Origin: a virus | Length of the DNA: 43,753 nucleotides | Reading direction: 5' to 3' (one strand) | Virus record (IMG/VR): IMGVR_UViG_3300044511_000153 | Span: 1 to 43,753 of that record | Part shown: positions 1 through 10,485 of the stretch, one piece after another | Numbering within the stretch: position 1 is the stretch's first letter | Layout of the letters: each line of letters begins with the position of its first letter | Notes under the pieces: generated by a model | Databases searched by the model: none | Told to the model about the DNA's origin: nothing | What the model saw: the letters and a program-made list of their open reading frames with translations, nothing else | Program-made: the position numbers and the translations under genes

Positions 1-367
1 CACGGCCTTGTTTTTTACCCGATAATCGGATATTCATATCCTTTTATCGGCGCCGATTTTACCATAACAAGCTAGGGCTTGTCAATACCTTAGGCCTAAA
101 AAGATATTCATATCCGTTTATCTTTTTTTACGGTCGCGCCGAAAATCGGATATTCATATCCTTTTATCTTTTTACGGTTACCTCGACAAGGCCTTGACAA
201 TATCACGGCGAATAAAACCTCGACAAGGCCTTGACAATATCACGGCCTTGTTTTTTACCCGATAATCGGATATTCATATCCTTTTATCGGCGCCGATTTT
301 ACCATAACAAGCTAGGGCTTGTCAATACCTTAGGCCTAAAAAGATATTCATATCCGTTTATCTTTTT
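1..367. repeat. 127-bp direct duplication (1-127 and 241-367)
   Basis: Positions 1-127 recur without a difference at 241-367, a 240-bp shift. The window edge cuts the first copy, so the true unit may be longer. Between the copies is a smaller tandem pair starting at 181 and 218, each containing the palindrome CAAGGCCTTG. No credible reading frame runs through either copy. It is the left end of a repeat-rich non-coding region. Confidence 0.95.
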
Positions 368-476
368 ACGGTTACCCCGCAAGTCGCCCCGCAAGTCGCC
401 CCGCAAGTCGCCGTAAATCGGATATTCATATCCGTTTATCTTTTTTACGGTCGCGCCGAAAATCGGATATTCAGGT
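28..476. repeat. family of interrupted palindromes GGATAT-TC-ATATCC
   Basis: The 14-bp element GGATATTCATATCC (6-bp arms, 2-bp centre) occurs at 28-41, 148-161, 268-281 and 420-433. Degenerate copies lie near 101-115, 341-355 and 464-476. Each is followed by a T-rich stretch and usually by TTTACGG. Several spaced copies of one dyad suggest binding sites for a dimeric protein (operator or replication iterons). That role is inference. Confidence 0.8.
375..410. repeat. three tandem 12-bp units CCCCGCAAGTCG
   Basis: Three perfect head-to-tail units at 375-386, 387-398 and 399-410, between two palindromic elements. It is GC-richer than its surroundings. The period is a multiple of three, so it leaves an artefactual repetitive reading frame, but nothing around it looks coding. 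Confidence 0.9.
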
Positions 477-505
477 CTTTTTATCTTTTTTACGGTCGCG
501 CTGTT

Positions 506-875
506 CAGTGTCAAGTCGAAAATCTTCAATGTTACCCCTGCGCCTAATTCAGTGTCAAGTCGAAAATCTTCAATGTTTTCCTGACCCTAAACCGTAGCGA
601 CCGTAGCGAGTTATGTGACCGTAAAAATTGTTTTTCCTTGCGCCTAATTCAGTGTCAAGTCGAAAATCTTCAATGTTTTCCTGACCCTAAACCGTAGCAG
701 TTTATGCGACCGTAGCAGTTTATGCGACCGTAGCAGTTTCTGAAACCGTTGCGCCCAATTCAGTGTCAAGTCGAAAATCTTCAATGTGATTGCTGCGCCT
801 ACTCCAGTGTCAAGTCGAAAATCTTCAATGTGATTGCTGCGCCTACTCCAGTGTCAAGTCGAAAATCTTTAATGT
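506..875. repeat. six copies of a 27-bp repeat
   Basis: A 27-bp element beginning CAGTGTCAAGTCGAAAATCT starts at 506, 550, 650, 761, 805 and 849, all in one orientation and almost identical. Intervals are 44, 100, 111, 44 and 44 bp. Copies are linked by short sequences that often hold the 16-mer GACCCTAAACCGTAGC. The spacing is too irregular and the linkers too similar for a CRISPR array. A cis-acting iteron array fits better. Confidence 0.9.
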
Positions 876-980
876 TTTCCTGACCCTAAACCGTAGCGAT
901 TTATGCAGTTTATGCAGTTTATGTGATCGTAGCGATTTCTGCGATTTATGTGACCGTAGTGATTTATGCAGTTTAGACAA

Positions 981-1012
981 AAAAAAAGCCTACACGAAAT
1001 GTGTAGGCTTTT
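981..1012. terminator. bidirectional intrinsic terminator
   Basis: The arms AAGCCTACAC and GTGTAGGCTT enclose a GAAAT loop, with an A-run on the left and a short T-run on the right. It resembles a Rho-independent terminator usable on both strands. It would stop minus-strand transcripts leaving the 1207-2019 gene. Confidence 0.8.
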
Positions 1013-1056
1013 GCGGTTTAGGTACGGTCGCTACGGTTTAGGGTCAATTGCTGCGG

Positions 1057-1191
1057 TTTAGGGTCAGCTATTTTTCGTGCAGGCCGCCGGAGTTTTTCCA
1101 GGTAAAAACAATTGCTACGGTTTAGGTACGGTCGCTACGGTTTAGGGTCAGCTATTTTTCGTGCAGGCCGCCGGAGTTTTTCCAAGTAAAA
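1057..1191. repeat. 51-bp direct repeat, 84 bp apart
   Basis: Positions 1057-1107 and 1141-1191 are the same apart from one base. Each begins with the TTTAGGGTCA end of the dispersed 16-mer and contains GCAGGCCGCCGGAG. The block lies just past the 3' end of the minus-strand gene at 1207. Confidence 0.9.
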
Positions 1192-1206
1192 GGCTTATTT
1201 TACCTC

Positions 1207-2019
1207 TTACCAAGGGAGACCCCCAGAGTCTTTCTGTTTTTTAGGAGGCTCCCAAGATGGGCTAGATATTGTAAAGCCTGTAAAGCTTTCAAAGTTAGTC
1301 TCCTCTAAAGGCTCTGGTACTTCATCTATATCAAAAGGGGATAAAATCATAACATCAGCCAATCTCTTGCTCGGCTCAAATATCCAACGTTGAGTAACCA
1401 TATGTTGGTAAAATGCAGGTATACCCCCCAGACTAGTTCCTTTAACACAACCATAAGAGGAAACCCCCTCCTGAATTGCGCGTTCTCTAATCTCAAGCAG
1501 CTCCTCTCTCTCCAGTCGTGGAATTTTTAACGTATGATAGTCCTTTAACATATGACCTAGGAAGTAGGAGTTAATTTTTGGATTGTCACTAAGAGTCCAC
1601 TTGGAATAAGGTCTCCCATACCCTGCGATATTAGGTACAGCACTACTAATACTAAGATTTTTCCCCATGTCTTTTAAGATATTACTACGAGGAAGGCTTA
1701 GTATCAGATAGATCGCCCTAAGTTGCTCTGTATCGTAGGTGACGCCATCTACATCTATCTCCCAGTCTCCTTGTAACTTTGCATAGAGCGTATCAAAGTC
1801 GCGCTGAGGGGCAGGAAATTTACTAACAATATGTAGTGCTTTATGAAGCCACCCACCAGCGGTATAAGGGTACAATATTTTAGGGTCAGAGTAAGCCTCT
1901 ATTAAAAAGGGCAACCCAAAATTATCAAACGAGGGGGTTGTTCTACTAAAAGCTCTTTTACGCTCCTTAGCAGCCAGGTTAGCTGCATGCGCGGTACGAG
2001 CTGCGGTGTTAAAATCCAT
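1207..2019 (-). CDS. hypothetical phage protein with SSB-like C-terminal tail
   Basis: 270 residues; I do not recognise the fold. The first 30 residues are Ala/Arg/Lys-rich and the middle is mixed, with several aromatic and loop-like stretches (GYGRPYSKW near residue 134). The chain ends in DSGGLPW, nearly the same as the last seven residues of the replicative helicase encoded at 25396-26769 (DPGGLPW). It is a lone gene inside the repeat region, with its own promoter (2085-2113) and a terminator beyond its end. The position, the shared tail and the flanking iteron-like repeats suggest, by inference, a role at a replication origin or with the replisome. Confidence 0.75.
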   Translation of the reverse strand: MDFNTAARTAHAANLAAKERKRAFSRTTPSFDNFGLPFLIEAYSDPKILYPYTAGGWLHKALHIVSKFPAPQRDFDTLYAKLQGDWEIDVDGVTYDTEQLRAIYLILSLPRSNILKDMGKNLSISSAVPNIAGYGRPYSKWTLSDNPKINSYFLGHMLKDYHTLKIPRLEREELLEIRERAIQEGVSSYGCVKGTSLGGIPAFYQHMVTQRWIFEPSKRLADVMILSPFDIDEVPEPLEETNFESFTGFTISSPSWEPPKKQKDSGGLPW

Positions 2020-2084
2020 AAAAATATATCCAAGTTAAGTTAAGTTAAAAATATAGTAAACCGAGATTGATTTACTATTTTAGT

Positions 2085-2113
2085 AGTATACAGAAATTTA
2101 AGAATAAAGTCAA
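2085..2113 (-). promoter_or_regulatory. sigma70-type promoter
   Basis: Read on the minus strand: TTGACT, 17-bp spacer, TATACT. The spacer ends in TTTCTG, as in the promoters at 6359 and 6627. It lies about 65 bp upstream of the start of the 1207-2019 gene, its only possible target. Confidence 0.8.
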
Positions 2114-2207
2114 GATCAAAATTTTAAGATTAACAAAAAAATAGTAACATTTTTTGCTACCTGTCTGCGCCGTAAAACCCCCAAAAAAATATCGGCCCGC
2201 GAAAGAA

Positions 2208-2458
2208 ATGAACAATAAAAACCTGTTTACAACTGCTTTTTTCAGTTAAGAAAGAAACTGTAAAAAGCGAATTATTCTGGTTTTTCTTGTTGCTAAGGAG
2301 GGTTGGGGGGTAAGAAAAAATGAACAATAAAAACCTAGTTACAACTGCTTTTTTCAACTAAAAATCAAAAAAATCTAACCTGACCCCTTTTTTATAAAAA
2401 ATGAAGGTGGAATCAAGAAAGAAAATGAACAATAAAAACCTAGTTACAACTGCTTTTT
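2208..2458. repeat. three copies of a ~34-bp repeat
   Basis: Near-identical copies beginning ATGAACAATAAAAACCT and ending in ACAACTGCTTTTT lie at 2208-2242, 2320-2354 and 2425-2458. The linkers differ. A 66-codon open frame on the minus strand runs through two copies but has no support as a gene. Upstream, 2114-2207 is AT-rich with nothing recognisable. Confidence 0.85.
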
Positions 2459-2487
2459 AATTGACCCTAAACCGTAGCAGTCGTAGC

Positions 2488-2765
2488 GATCTAATGCGAT
2501 CTAATGCGATCTAATGCGATCTAATGCGATCTAATGCGATCTAATGCGATCTAATGCGATCTAATGCGATCTAATGCGATCTAATGCGATCTAGTGCGAT
2601 CTAGTGCGATCTAGTGCGATCTAGTGCGATCTAATGCGATCTAATGCGATCTAGGGATTGACCCTAAACCGTAGCAGTCGTAGCAATCTAATGCTTGACC
2701 CTGCACTGTAGCAGTCGTAGCGATCTAATACGATCTAGTGCGATCTAGTGCGATCTAATACGATC
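2488..2765. repeat. phased decamer array carrying 22 GATC sites
   Basis: A 10-bp unit CTAATGCGAT (variant CTAGTGCGAT in four units) is repeated 16 times from 2491 to 2650. This places 17 GATC sites exactly 10 bp apart. Five more GATC sites at the same spacing occur at 2722-2765, after a copy of the 16-mer. The period is not a multiple of three, so it is not coding. GATC is the Dam methylation and SeqA target. Sites on one helical face suggest a methylation-sensitive control or origin element. This is inferred from the pattern only. Confidence 0.9.
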
Positions 2766-2901
2766 TATGCAATTTATACAATCTAGTGTAGCAAGCCTAA
2801 ACTGCTACGGTTTAGGGTCAAAAACAGTCTAGAGCGAGAGTCATGACCTTAACGGGAAAAAAGCGGGGCGGCGCGCAACCCCCCCTTTTTTTTTCTCGCA
2901 C

Positions 2902-2924
2902 AGAAAAGTGCGTAGCACTTTTCT
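2902..2924. terminator. perfect 10-bp hairpin, terminator-like
   Basis: The arms AGAAAAGTGC and GCACTTTTCT have a 3-nt loop and are followed on the plus strand by CCCTTTAGTTTTT. It could act as an intrinsic terminator, or be one of the cluster of hairpins at 2902-3197. No gene ends right beside it. Confidence 0.5.
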
Positions 2925-2973
2925 CCCTTTAGTTTTTGAAAAAGCATAAAAATTATAGTTTTTTCAGTTGCCG

Positions 2974-3022
2974 TAAAAGTCGAAAAAGAACCCGTATTAT
3001 TCAGGTTCATTTACGACTTTTA
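2974..3022. other. imperfect 49-nt stem-loop
   Basis: TAAAAGTCG (2974-2982) pairs with CGACTTTTA (3014-3022) and GAACC (2988-2992) with GGTTC (3004-3008). The A-rich and T-rich strands between them can also pair partly. The apical loop is 11 nt. It has no T-run and no adjacent gene end, so a terminator is unlikely. Confidence 0.65.
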
Positions 3023-3068
3023 TTTCTCAGTTTTTAAGATTACATTTCCCCCGTTCGCTTCAATTATC

Positions 3069-3197
3069 GGCTAGAGATTATGTAAGAAACTATGATTTAA
3101 CGACCTTCTTTCCTTCCCCCGGGTTCCCTAGACGGTTCACACTACGGGGGACAGGAAGAAGTTAATTAAATCATTAATTTCTTTAAAATCTCTAGCC
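3069..3197. other. 129-nt long imperfect inverted repeat
   Basis: Successive paired blocks: 3069-3079 with 3187-3197 (11 bp, perfect), 3084-3089 with 3178-3183, 3092-3100 with 3166-3174 (9 bp), 3105-3110 with 3156-3161, 3112-3114 with 3153-3155, and 3116-3121 with 3145-3150. About 41 base pairs close a loop of about 23 nt. No start codon or promoter is evident. It could be a cruciform, a replication or packaging signal, or a structured RNA. From 3198 to 3413 the sequence is AT-rich with nothing else I can support. Confidence 0.8.
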
Positions 3198-3413
3198 ATT
3201 GTAGACTTATCCAATATATACAATATTATAGCAGATTTTTAGATAAAATGAAAGCACATTTTTCGTAGATGAAATTGAAAGCTTAGAATTTTCTTAGATT
3301 TTTGATTACTATATCTTCGAAATTTTTATAAAAATTTCTGTAGAACATCCGACTAGAAGCTTAGAAAAAAATTATTTTTTATTAGCAAAAACTTTAGCAT
3401 ACTTTTAGATAAA

Positions 3414-3519
3414 AAACTTCTAAAACCTTTTTTCCTAAACCGTAGAAACCTTTTTTTCGTAGAAACTTCTAAAACCTTTTTTCCTAAACCGTAGAAACCT
3501 TTTTTTCGTAGAAACTTCT
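3414..3519. repeat. 49-bp tandem repeat, about two units
   Basis: Unit 3414-3462 is repeated at 3463-3511, and a third copy begins at 3512. Each unit contains CCTAAACCGTAGAAACC, a relative of the dispersed 16-mer, so this array probably grew from the same element. Confidence 0.85.
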
Positions 3520-3584
3520 ACGCTAGGGTCAAGCTTTAGATCGCTACGGTTTAGGGTCTTTCTAAACTTTAGCTAGAAATAAAA

Positions 3585-3608
3585 AAAACCGGCTAAAAAG
3601 CCGGTTTT
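3585..3608. terminator. bidirectional intrinsic terminator
   Basis: AACCGGCT and AGCCGGTT form a stem with a 4-nt loop. A-run and T-run flanks make it usable on both strands. The minus-strand gene ending at 3610 stops right beside it, so it terminates the tRNA and small-gene transcript before the repeat region. Confidence 0.85.
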
Positions 3609-4983: not shown

Positions 4984-5058
4984 TGGATGCAGCCGGGGCA
5001 GTTTGCATCCCCTTCCAACACAGGTTATGAGCCTGGTGTCCGACTAACGGAAGCTGCG
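4984..5058 (-). tRNA. tRNA with CAT anticodon, divergent, initiator-like
   Basis: Anticodon loop CTCATAA and an encoded CCA are clear. The acceptor CGCAGCT/GGCTGCA pairs at positions 2-7 but leaves a C1-A72 mismatch, the mark of bacterial initiator tRNA. The rest is irregular: the T-loop reads TGCAAAC rather than TTCAAAT, the T-stem has a G-G mismatch, and the D-arm lacks the usual GG loop. It may be a phage tRNA-fMet, a CAT-type Met or Ile tRNA, or a decaying gene. Confidence 0.6.
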
Positions 5059-5280: not shown

Positions 5281-5357
5281 TGGTTCGAAGAGCGAGACTC
5301 GAACTCGCAACCTAAGGATTATGAGTCCTTTGCTCTAACCAATTGAGCTATCTTCGA
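5281..5357 (-). tRNA. tRNA with CAT anticodon (Ile2 or Met)
   Basis: Regular cloverleaf with acceptor TCGAAGA/TCTTCGA, anticodon stem-loop AAGGA-CTCATAA-TCCTT, T-loop TTCGAGT, discriminator A and encoded CCA. CAT is read as Met unless C34 becomes lysidine, when it decodes ATA as Ile. The last eight codons and the stop of tilS lie inside its 5' half (5335-5357). Being fused to a gene for the lysidine enzyme favours tRNA-Ile2. However, its acceptor lacks the C4/C5 bases used by the E. coli enzyme, so identity is open. Confidence 0.9.
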
Positions 5358-5937
5358 TTCGTTTCTTAACTGTTTTATACAACCCGGGGTTAACTTTTAG
5401 TAACTCCGGTAAAATAAGGTGTCTCACCCGATTCCTAGCAGCAAAAGTAATATCCTGATTACTTTCATCTTCTAGCCACACTACACTATGTTTAGTAGCA
5501 TAGGCAGTAATAGCTTTTTTAGTTGTAATAATAAAAGGGCGAATGATATTCGCATTTGTAGGCTTTATATACTTACCTAAACCGTGTGCTGCTGAGAAAA
5601 CATACCACTCAACCGCATCATCTAGAGTGGTCGCTACAACCACTTGTTGTCTAATACTTTGTAAAAACTCGTAGCGACCACTCCGCCAGTACTCCTCACG
5701 TGACTGATTACTGCCTCTAACCTCTTTTTGATGTTTAATTATAATAGGTATATTTTGTTTTTGGCAGTAATCAGTCACAAACTCCAACTCTTTTTTAGCA
5801 AACTCAGAGTTGTGCACATAGTGTGCTACTGTTACTTTATGATTGCGTTGTAGAAAATGCAATGCAACCATTGAATCAATACCTCCACTGACCGCAACAG
5901 TAACTTCCCTAGGGATCTTTAGTTTTAAGTTAAACAT
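5335..5937 (-). CDS. tilS: tRNA(Ile)-lysidine synthetase homologue (TilS-like)
   Basis: 200 residues. TilS uses ATP and lysine to convert C34 of the CAT anticodon of tRNA-Ile2 to lysidine, changing decoding from AUG to AUA. Visible motifs: PP-loop SGGIDSM (residues 18-24), TTLDDAVE where cellular enzymes have HHxDDQxET, IRPF, and the TilS-typical WLEDESNQD followed by RNRVRHLILP and VNPG. The length covers only the catalytic domain; E. coli TilS is about 430 residues. The ATG at 5937 has only a weak AGGT upstream. The 3' end overlaps a CAT-anticodon tRNA by 23 nt, and a hammerhead ribozyme lies upstream in the leader. I am confident of the family; activity is inferred. Confidence 0.9.
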   Translation of the reverse strand: MFNLKLKIPREVTVAVSGGIDSMVALHFLQRNHKVTVAHYVHNSEFAKKELEFVTDYCQKQNIPIIIKHQKEVRGSNQSREEYWRSGRYEFLQSIRQQVVVATTLDDAVEWYVFSAAHGLGKYIKPTNANIIRPFIITTKKAITAYATKHSVVWLEDESNQDITFAARNRVRHLILPELLKVNPGLYKTVKKRIEDSSIG

Positions 5938-5983
5938 TGAATCAATTACCTGACCCTAAACCGCAAAAGCCTAAGCTGAAAAC

Positions 5984-6053
5984 AGGTGAGGCTGAAACTA
6001 GATTCGGTTTCAATTAAGTTGCTATCCACGGCGTACCGTAGTCTCTAACACCT
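5984..6053 (-). other. structured leader between ribozyme and tilS
   Basis: On the minus strand AGGTG (6049-6053) pairs with CACCT (5984-5988), and GAGACTA (6039-6045) with TAGTTTC (5994-6000, one G-U). A small ACGG-TACG-CCGT hairpin lies inside. It starts a few nt after the predicted hammerhead cleavage site, so it would cap the new 5' end of the tilS mRNA. A role in protecting the cleaved message is inference. Confidence 0.45.
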
Positions 6054-6057
6054 CTTT

Positions 6058-6137
6058 GTTGTTGACAATATGGTTCTCGGAGCTACTACTCTACAATCAC
6101 CATACTGTTTCGCCTATATAAGGCTCATCAGAACAAC
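6058..6137 (-). ncRNA. type I hammerhead ribozyme
   Basis: Read 5' to 3' on the minus strand: GTTGTT (stem I), CTGATGA (core), GCCT-TATAT-AGGC (stem II), GAAA (core), CAGTATGGT (stem III), a 24-nt loop holding a small GAG/CTC stem, ACCATATTG (stem III return), TC completing the GTC cleavage triplet, and AACAAC (stem I return). All conserved core bases are present. Stem I is 6 bp, stem II 4 bp and stem III 9 bp with one G-U pair. Both ends lie in stem I, making it type I. Cleavage is predicted between the bases at 6064 and 6063. It begins eight nt after the stop of the 6145-6312 gene and ends about 120 nt before tilS. Confidence 0.93.
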
Positions 6138-6144
6138 TCGCTCT

Positions 6145-6312
6145 CTAGCGCATAGTGTGATCCAGAAACTCCTCCACCGCTTCAGCAGGAGTAACCTCCG
6201 ATTCCCAGAGATCAAACCAATGGAAGTCTTCAAAAAAGGTGTGCTCTGCTCCAACTTCGTAAATCAGGATACCATCTACCTTAGTAAGCCATGTCCTATA
6301 ATCGCTACGCAT
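6145..6312 (-). CDS. small conserved phage protein
   Basis: 55 residues, acidic and aromatic-rich. The ATG at 6310-6312 is preferred because AAGGAG lies seven bases upstream; an in-frame ATG two codons earlier is too close to it. The N-terminus (MRSDY) resembles that of the neighbouring 6404-6586 protein (MKIRSEY), and both genes have almost the same promoter, so they look like an old duplication. The hammerhead ribozyme occupies its 3' untranslated region. Confidence 0.65.
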   Translation of the reverse strand: MRSDYRTWLTKVDGILIYEVGAEHTFFEDFHWFDLWESEVTPAEAVEEFLDHTMR

Positions 6313-6358
6313 TTTCATTCTCCTTAGCTTTAACTGTTTTTCCCCAACCAATGTGTAT

Positions 6359-6387
6359 ATTATACAGAAACCAGAGACTAAAGTCAA
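6359..6387 (-). promoter_or_regulatory. consensus sigma70-type promoter
   Basis: TTGACT, 17-bp spacer, TATAAT on the minus strand. About 55 bases around it match the promoter at 6627-6655 almost exactly. It drives the 6145-6312 gene and then the ribozyme, tilS and tRNA genes, since no other clear promoter lies between. Confidence 0.9.
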
Positions 6388-6626: not shown

Positions 6627-6655
6627 ATTATACAGAAACCAGGGACTAAAGTCAA
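6627..6655 (-). promoter_or_regulatory. consensus sigma70-type promoter
   Basis: TTGACT, 17-bp spacer, TATAAT on the minus strand. It starts three bases beyond the stop of the 6658-7035 gene and feeds the 6404-6586 gene. The block around it is a near-copy of the promoter at 6359-6387. Confidence 0.9.
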
Positions 6656-8578: not shown

Positions 8579-8611
8579 TTTGTTTCCTTTCTTTCCTCAG
8601 CCAATGTGTAT

Positions 8612-8640
8612 ATTATACAGAAACTAACAGACTATTTCAA
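8612..8640 (-). promoter_or_regulatory. sigma70-type promoter
   Basis: TTGAAA, 17-bp spacer, TATAAT on the minus strand, in the same sequence context (TTTCTGTATAATATACAC) as the promoters at 6359 and 6627. It would transcribe the 8420-8578 gene and the downstream deaminase operon. Confidence 0.9.
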
Positions 8641-8665
8641 GTTACAATTTTTTAATGTGATCAGT

Positions 8666-10400: not shown

Positions 10401-10440
10401 TGTATCTCCATTTCAGCCATAAAAATTGAAATTGCAATAT

Positions 10441-10469
10441 ATTATACACAAAAACAGTAACAAAAACAA
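10441..10469 (-). promoter_or_regulatory. leftward promoter of divergent pair
   Basis: TTGTTT, 17-bp spacer, TATAAT on the minus strand. With the rightward promoter at 10486-10514 it forms the divide between the two transcription directions. Confidence 0.8.
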
Positions 10470-10485
10470 GACCAAAATTTTGGAT

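Follow-up and report, generated by a model that had tools for sequence, protein, structure and literature searches.

The window, i.e., the whole 43,753-nt stretch of DNA from an uncultured phage analysed here, carries on its minus strand a candidate type I hammerhead ribozyme (6058–6137), which was delineated by descriptor scan, fold, and covariance model. Upstream of it, a sigma-70-type promoter sequence (TTGACT-17-TATAAT; 6359–6387, minus strand), one of several near-identical copies before small minus-strand genes, precedes an ORF of 57 amino acids (6145–6318, minus strand) that has AAGGAG 5′ of its ATG and ends 7 nt before stem I of the ribozyme. A 56-amino-acid reading of this ORF matched phrog_519, a family of unknown function (E = 1e-9). 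Downstream of the ribozyme lies a tilS-like gene (5335–5937, minus strand) encoding 200 amino acids with the N-terminal PP-loop ATPase domain of tRNA(Ile)-lysidine synthetase (PF01171, E = 2e-31; 44% identity to the TilS of PA5oct), and then a tRNA gene with a CAU anticodon (elongator Met or Ile2) and an encoded CCA (5281–5357, minus strand). The initial annotation had placed the ribozyme between two genes of one transcript, and the 57-amino-acid ORF and tilS are indeed both on the minus strand. Because no terminator-like site was found between these two genes, they are likely to share a single transcript, judging from the sequence. Promoter-like repeats were observed before small genes at 6359–6387, 6627–6655, 8590–8652, 2063–2125, and 10440–10481, the best two of which read TTGACT-17-TATAAT.

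The spacer between the ribozyme and tilS begins with AAAGAGGTG immediately 3′ of stem I, contains one copy of the CGGTTTAGG repeat further on, and has no usable start codon at a normal distance. Such a spacer would be consistent with tilS having been inserted downstream of a hammerhead that was already there. A structured leader or riboswitch in this region was rejected as a candidate, given that the region folded no better than its shuffled versions (z = −0.45). The repeat CCTAAACCG/CGGTTTAGG occurs in 16 copies, located in positions 1–3600 of the window and at 5955 and 5576, with nearly all of them in the noncoding left end, and a tandem array of GCGATCTAAT is present near 2486–2655. At its other end, tilS overlaps the CAU tRNA gene, within which its stop and last seven codons are situated (5357–5335, minus strand), so that a single transcript would yield either the full TilS or the mature tRNA, never both. 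A search with an alignment of three TilS proteins identified relatives in 396 viral stretches, and the best 80 of these 396 other phage tilS loci were read. The overlap was absent from these 80 loci, 7 of which had a CAU tRNA 30–62 nt behind the tilS match. A further fold resembling a cloverleaf, with CAU in its anticodon loop, was noted at 4985–5057 (minus strand), with no ARAGORN or Rfam call and a z score of only −1.0.

Structure of the candidate ribozyme

On the minus strand, from 6137 to 6058, the sequence reads in the order GUUGUU, CUGAUGA, GCCU, UAUAU, AGGC, GAA, ACAGUAUGGU, a 24-nt segment, ACCAUAUUGU, C, and AACAAC. The 5′ strand of stem I (GUUGUU, 6132–6137; fold and descriptor scan) is directly preceded by A6138, which corresponds to the conserved A at position −7 of phage type I hammerheads, and is followed by the core CUGAUGA (6125–6131). 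Stem II (GCCU-UAUAU-AGGC, 6112–6124; fold and covariance model) has four base pairs and a 5-nt loop. The core GAA (6109–6111) is followed by a fourth A, which is A15.1 of stem III, and stem III itself (6065–6108) comprises 10 base pairs between ACAGUAUGGU and ACCAUAUUGU, including A15.1–U16.1 and one G–U wobble, and a 24-nt apical region that folds as a small hairpin. The 3′ strand of stem I (AACAAC, 6058–6063; fold and family conservation) is followed by AAA, as in the phage family. Stems I, II, and III therefore have 6, 4, and 10 base pairs, respectively, or 20 in total. The stem I (GTTGTT/AACAAC) and stem II (GCCT/AGGC) described previously were recovered unchanged, whereas stem III has 10 base pairs rather than the 9 given.

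All the required core elements (CUGANGA ... GAA, A15.1–U16.1, and H17) were present in the correct order in the sequence and the descriptor scan, and the three helices were arranged around this core with the correct spacing, both in the descriptor scan and in the minimum free energy (MFE) fold. The topology is that of type I, in which loops cap stems II and III and stem I is open. Hammerheads cleave after C17, leaving a 2′,3′-cyclic phosphate on the upstream product and a 5′-hydroxyl on the downstream product. By this rule, the predicted scission site lies 3′ of C17 (6064), and the 3′ product would begin at A6063 with a 5′-hydroxyl. The leader of tilS computed from this predicted site would be 126 nt (5938–6063, minus strand), in agreement with the earlier estimate of a cut about 125 nt before tilS.

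Statistical support and sensitivity of Rfam

The descriptor scan of both strands of the 43.7 kb window yielded 6137–6058 as the sole type I match and detected no second hammerhead. Applied to 1115 dinucleotide-shuffled versions of the whole window, the same descriptor yielded 18 matches with minimal stems and four with a stem total of at least 14, and none reached the observed total of 20. The MFE fold of the region is the hammerhead, with z scores of −4.5 (83 nt) and −3.7 (80 nt), and no shuffled sequence folded equally well. For an independent comparison, a covariance model was built from 23 type I phage hammerheads of one geometry in a gapless alignment, from which the window sequence was excluded; the core positions of this training set were fixed by selection, whereas the flanks and the length of stem I were free. 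The underlying core-pattern scan of IMG/VR (CTGATGAG-C ... G-CGAAAC) returned at least 120 contigs. This model matched the window copy over its full length (positions 1–53 of 53) with 47.5 bits (E = 8.2e-11). With the filters off, the same model gave 26.8 bits under another local parse with stem I misplaced, a lower value that we ascribe to how the long stem III is parsed. As a matter of general caution, a chance resemblance to a hammerhead might be considered for so short a core. However, this explanation is practically negligible and is refuted by the shuffle test and the independent covariance model, and the initial judgement that an accidental origin was very unlikely holds.

Gathering-threshold and permissive Rfam scans of the window reported no hammerhead (RF00163 or RF00008) at the cut-off; the best score of the window copy was 16.8 bits against a cut-off of 48.5, and its comparison with RF00163 (Hammerhead_1) and RF03152 (RAGATH-1-hammerhead) gave no match at E values up to 10. 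The gathering score is a library cut-off and not a biochemical definition of a ribozyme. When eight control contigs holding many hammerheads were scanned in the same way, none was reported at the gathering score, and for phage members whose stem III is short, RF00163 gave 25–30 bits where its cut-off is 34. Because Rfam misses all the hammerheads in these eight control loci, its failure to report the window copy is uninformative, and these results showed that the Rfam cut-off is too strict for the phage type I hammerhead family. The proposed check with the Hammerhead_1 model thus gave no match at the cut-off for either the window or the controls, whereas the covariance model constructed here detected the window copy.

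Another explanation is that the element is a decayed or inactive hammerhead, retained as a folded spacer or 3′-end hairpin. Natural hammerhead-like RNAs without activity exist (PMC3088659), and the conservation of this locus could not be demonstrated. Searches using TilS, gp7055, DNA polymerase, ribonucleotide reductase (RNR), and ThyX found no close relative of the locus. The single-query searches with TilS and DNA polymerase returned none, and the relatives found with gp7055, RNR, and ThyX had little in common with the window apart from the gene used as query and were not syntenic with it. The nearest named DNA polymerases belong to phages of Klebsiella and Enterobacter (about 110 kb), which, at 46% polymerase identity, are too distant for a comparison of the locus. 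Among the 160 contigs retrieved through the RNR or ThyX searches, the descriptor detected one hammerhead, and a covariance-model search of 70 of these 160 contigs recovered the same one. The record may cover only part of the phage genome. Against an inactive element, no core position of the window copy deviates from the consensus, every core-flanking pair is intact, and flanking bases that are expected to matter only in an active ribozyme (the A at −7 and the AA 3′ of stem I) are also retained. We consider an inactive remnant very unlikely.

A family of phage hammerheads linked to upstream stop codons

The core-pattern scan, together with a second pattern built on the window's own stem II (91 contigs), identified at least 224 distinct type I hammerheads across 206 viral contigs. 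Among the 224 hammerheads listed, stem I was exactly 6 bp in 194, an A was present at −7 in 194, and AA followed stem I in 136, and the window copy has all three of these traits. Among the conserved peripheral bases that might take part in a tertiary contact between loop II and stem I, the window copy carries the A at −7, the AA 3′ of stem I, and the TNNAT loop. The peripheral traits that were not used in selecting the window copy also fit the family. A stem III segment of 40 nt or more was found in only 7 of the 224 listed, that of the window copy being longer than usual. No member of the first set of 121 listed was located inside an ORF of more than 100 amino acids. The next start codon with a Shine–Dalgarno-like motif was at a median distance of approximately 30 nt (at least 100 nt in 31 of 163 listed), and the start of tilS, 120 nt 3′ of the window ribozyme, is above the usual gap of the family. 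In several contigs (L050, L095, and others), consecutive small phage genes were separated by type I hammerheads, as many as seven in a row, and eight loci with such runs had no Rfam gathering match. One contig contained three consecutive type III hammerheads with A/U-rich stems III of 9–13 bp (L100:10415–11252).

The position of the upstream stop codon was a further common trait. An upstream stop was located −12 to +15 nt from stem I in 158 of 213 listed members, compared with 100 of 870 CTGANGA sites on these contigs that do not belong to hammerheads. The window copy lies outside ORFs, with the stop codon at +7, i.e., 7 nt 5′ of stem I. In about three quarters of the listed phage hammerheads, the end of the upstream ORF fell inside the ribozyme or at its boundary, and in 36 of 213 listed members, the stop was the UGA of the catalytic core itself. 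It is conceivable, though unlikely, that phage type I hammerheads, including the window copy, are gated by upstream translation, so that cutting would report on the upstream gene. Under such gating, translation of the upstream ORF would terminate inside stem I or immediately 5′ of it, in many cases on the core UGA, and cleavage would be delayed for as long as the terminating ribosome shields the 5′ strand of this stem. The placement of the stop codon provides a testable handle on the purpose of phage hammerheads.

Regarding the genes that follow these hammerheads, they are varied and mostly unknown; 91 downstream proteins matched 43 PHROG families, nearly all of them once, and the terminase small subunit accounted for two of the 25 listed downstream families. 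The statement in the initial annotation that phage hammerheads occur mostly near lysis or packaging genes did not hold in this sample. A special tie to a tRNA-modifying enzyme had also been raised there. A rival explanation along these lines is that the hammerhead is dedicated to tilS and the tRNAs, with cleavage tuning the dosage of TilS or making the 5′ end of a tRNA precursor. The window ribozyme is directly upstream of tilS and the tRNA cluster, and the HDV-like theta ribozymes, which are reported to lie next to phage tRNAs (PMC10879173), set a precedent. However, neither the descriptor nor the covariance model detected a hammerhead at any of the best 80 of the 396 other phage tilS loci, and only 4 of the 224 listed hammerheads were within 1.5 kb of a tRNA, which is no enrichment, given that 3.7% of the bases of these loci are so placed. 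Because of these two results, the tRNA reading is unsupported. Furthermore, with 706 nt separating the predicted cleavage site from the first tRNA downstream, the formation of tRNA ends would continue to depend on RNase P. In the open-access papers searched, no account of a hammerhead associated with the tRNA or tilS genes of a phage was found. A dedicated role in tRNA modification is quite unlikely, and tilS looks like a chance neighbour of the ribozyme.

Proposed role and comparison with known ribozymes

The element is very probably a genuine type I hammerhead of a kind widespread between the genes of tailed phages, where it would act as an intercistronic self-cleaving element. From its fold, sequence, statistics, and family anatomy, we infer the cleavage, the chemistry of the ends, and an effect on expression as follows. 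The minus-strand operon would be transcribed from the promoter at 6359–6387 or from the upstream copies, and the RNA would fold and cut itself between C6064 and A6063. Cleavage would leave the folded ribozyme, bearing a 2′,3′-cyclic phosphate, at the 3′ end of the message of the 57-amino-acid ORF, and the downstream RNA, carrying tilS and then the tRNAs, would start with a 5′-hydroxyl and the 126-nt leader. In this way, polycistronic phage RNA could be split into units of separate stability and translation, a role that is likely to be generic and without specificity for tRNA modification. This message-splitting reading is adopted from the account of prophage hammerheads by Perreault et al. (PMC3088659).

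Alone, the window copy is one further phage hammerhead. The survey adds hundreds of phage type I hammerheads that follow a strict common plan linked to the upstream stop codon. Because the Rfam cut-offs report none in the eight hammerhead-bearing loci, it is probable that routine annotation misses a frequent means by which phages may cleave their mRNAs.

The HDV-like theta ribozymes of gut phages are likewise self-cleaving phage RNAs, reported to be tied to tRNAs (PMC10879173); they belong to a different ribozyme class, whose fold is not present in the window. RF00163 and RF03152 represent the same ribozyme class as the window copy. One of the hammerheads of Pelagivirus S35C6 (AP013542.1; L157:2995–3055) is also intergenic and has an identical stem-loop II (CUUAUAUAG) and a stem III of 11 bp, but it is flanked by unrelated small hypothetical genes and has another stem I. 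All three hammerhead types have been noted in phages (PMC7761336). The type I hammerheads of phages and prophages are intergenic in operons, with several often separating single genes (Perreault et al. 2011, PMC3088659). Tandem sets from prophage operons, arranged in a comparable way, are active in vitro, one of them also in Escherichia coli, and their flanking of prophage genes led to the suggestion that they cut long phage transcripts into smaller messages (PMC3088659). The window copy shares the core, the topology, and the intergenic operon position of these ribozymes, whereas it differs from them in being solitary, in its more extended stem III (10 bp plus 24 nt), and in preceding tilS. 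It is a member of a large, previously recognised kind of phage hammerhead.
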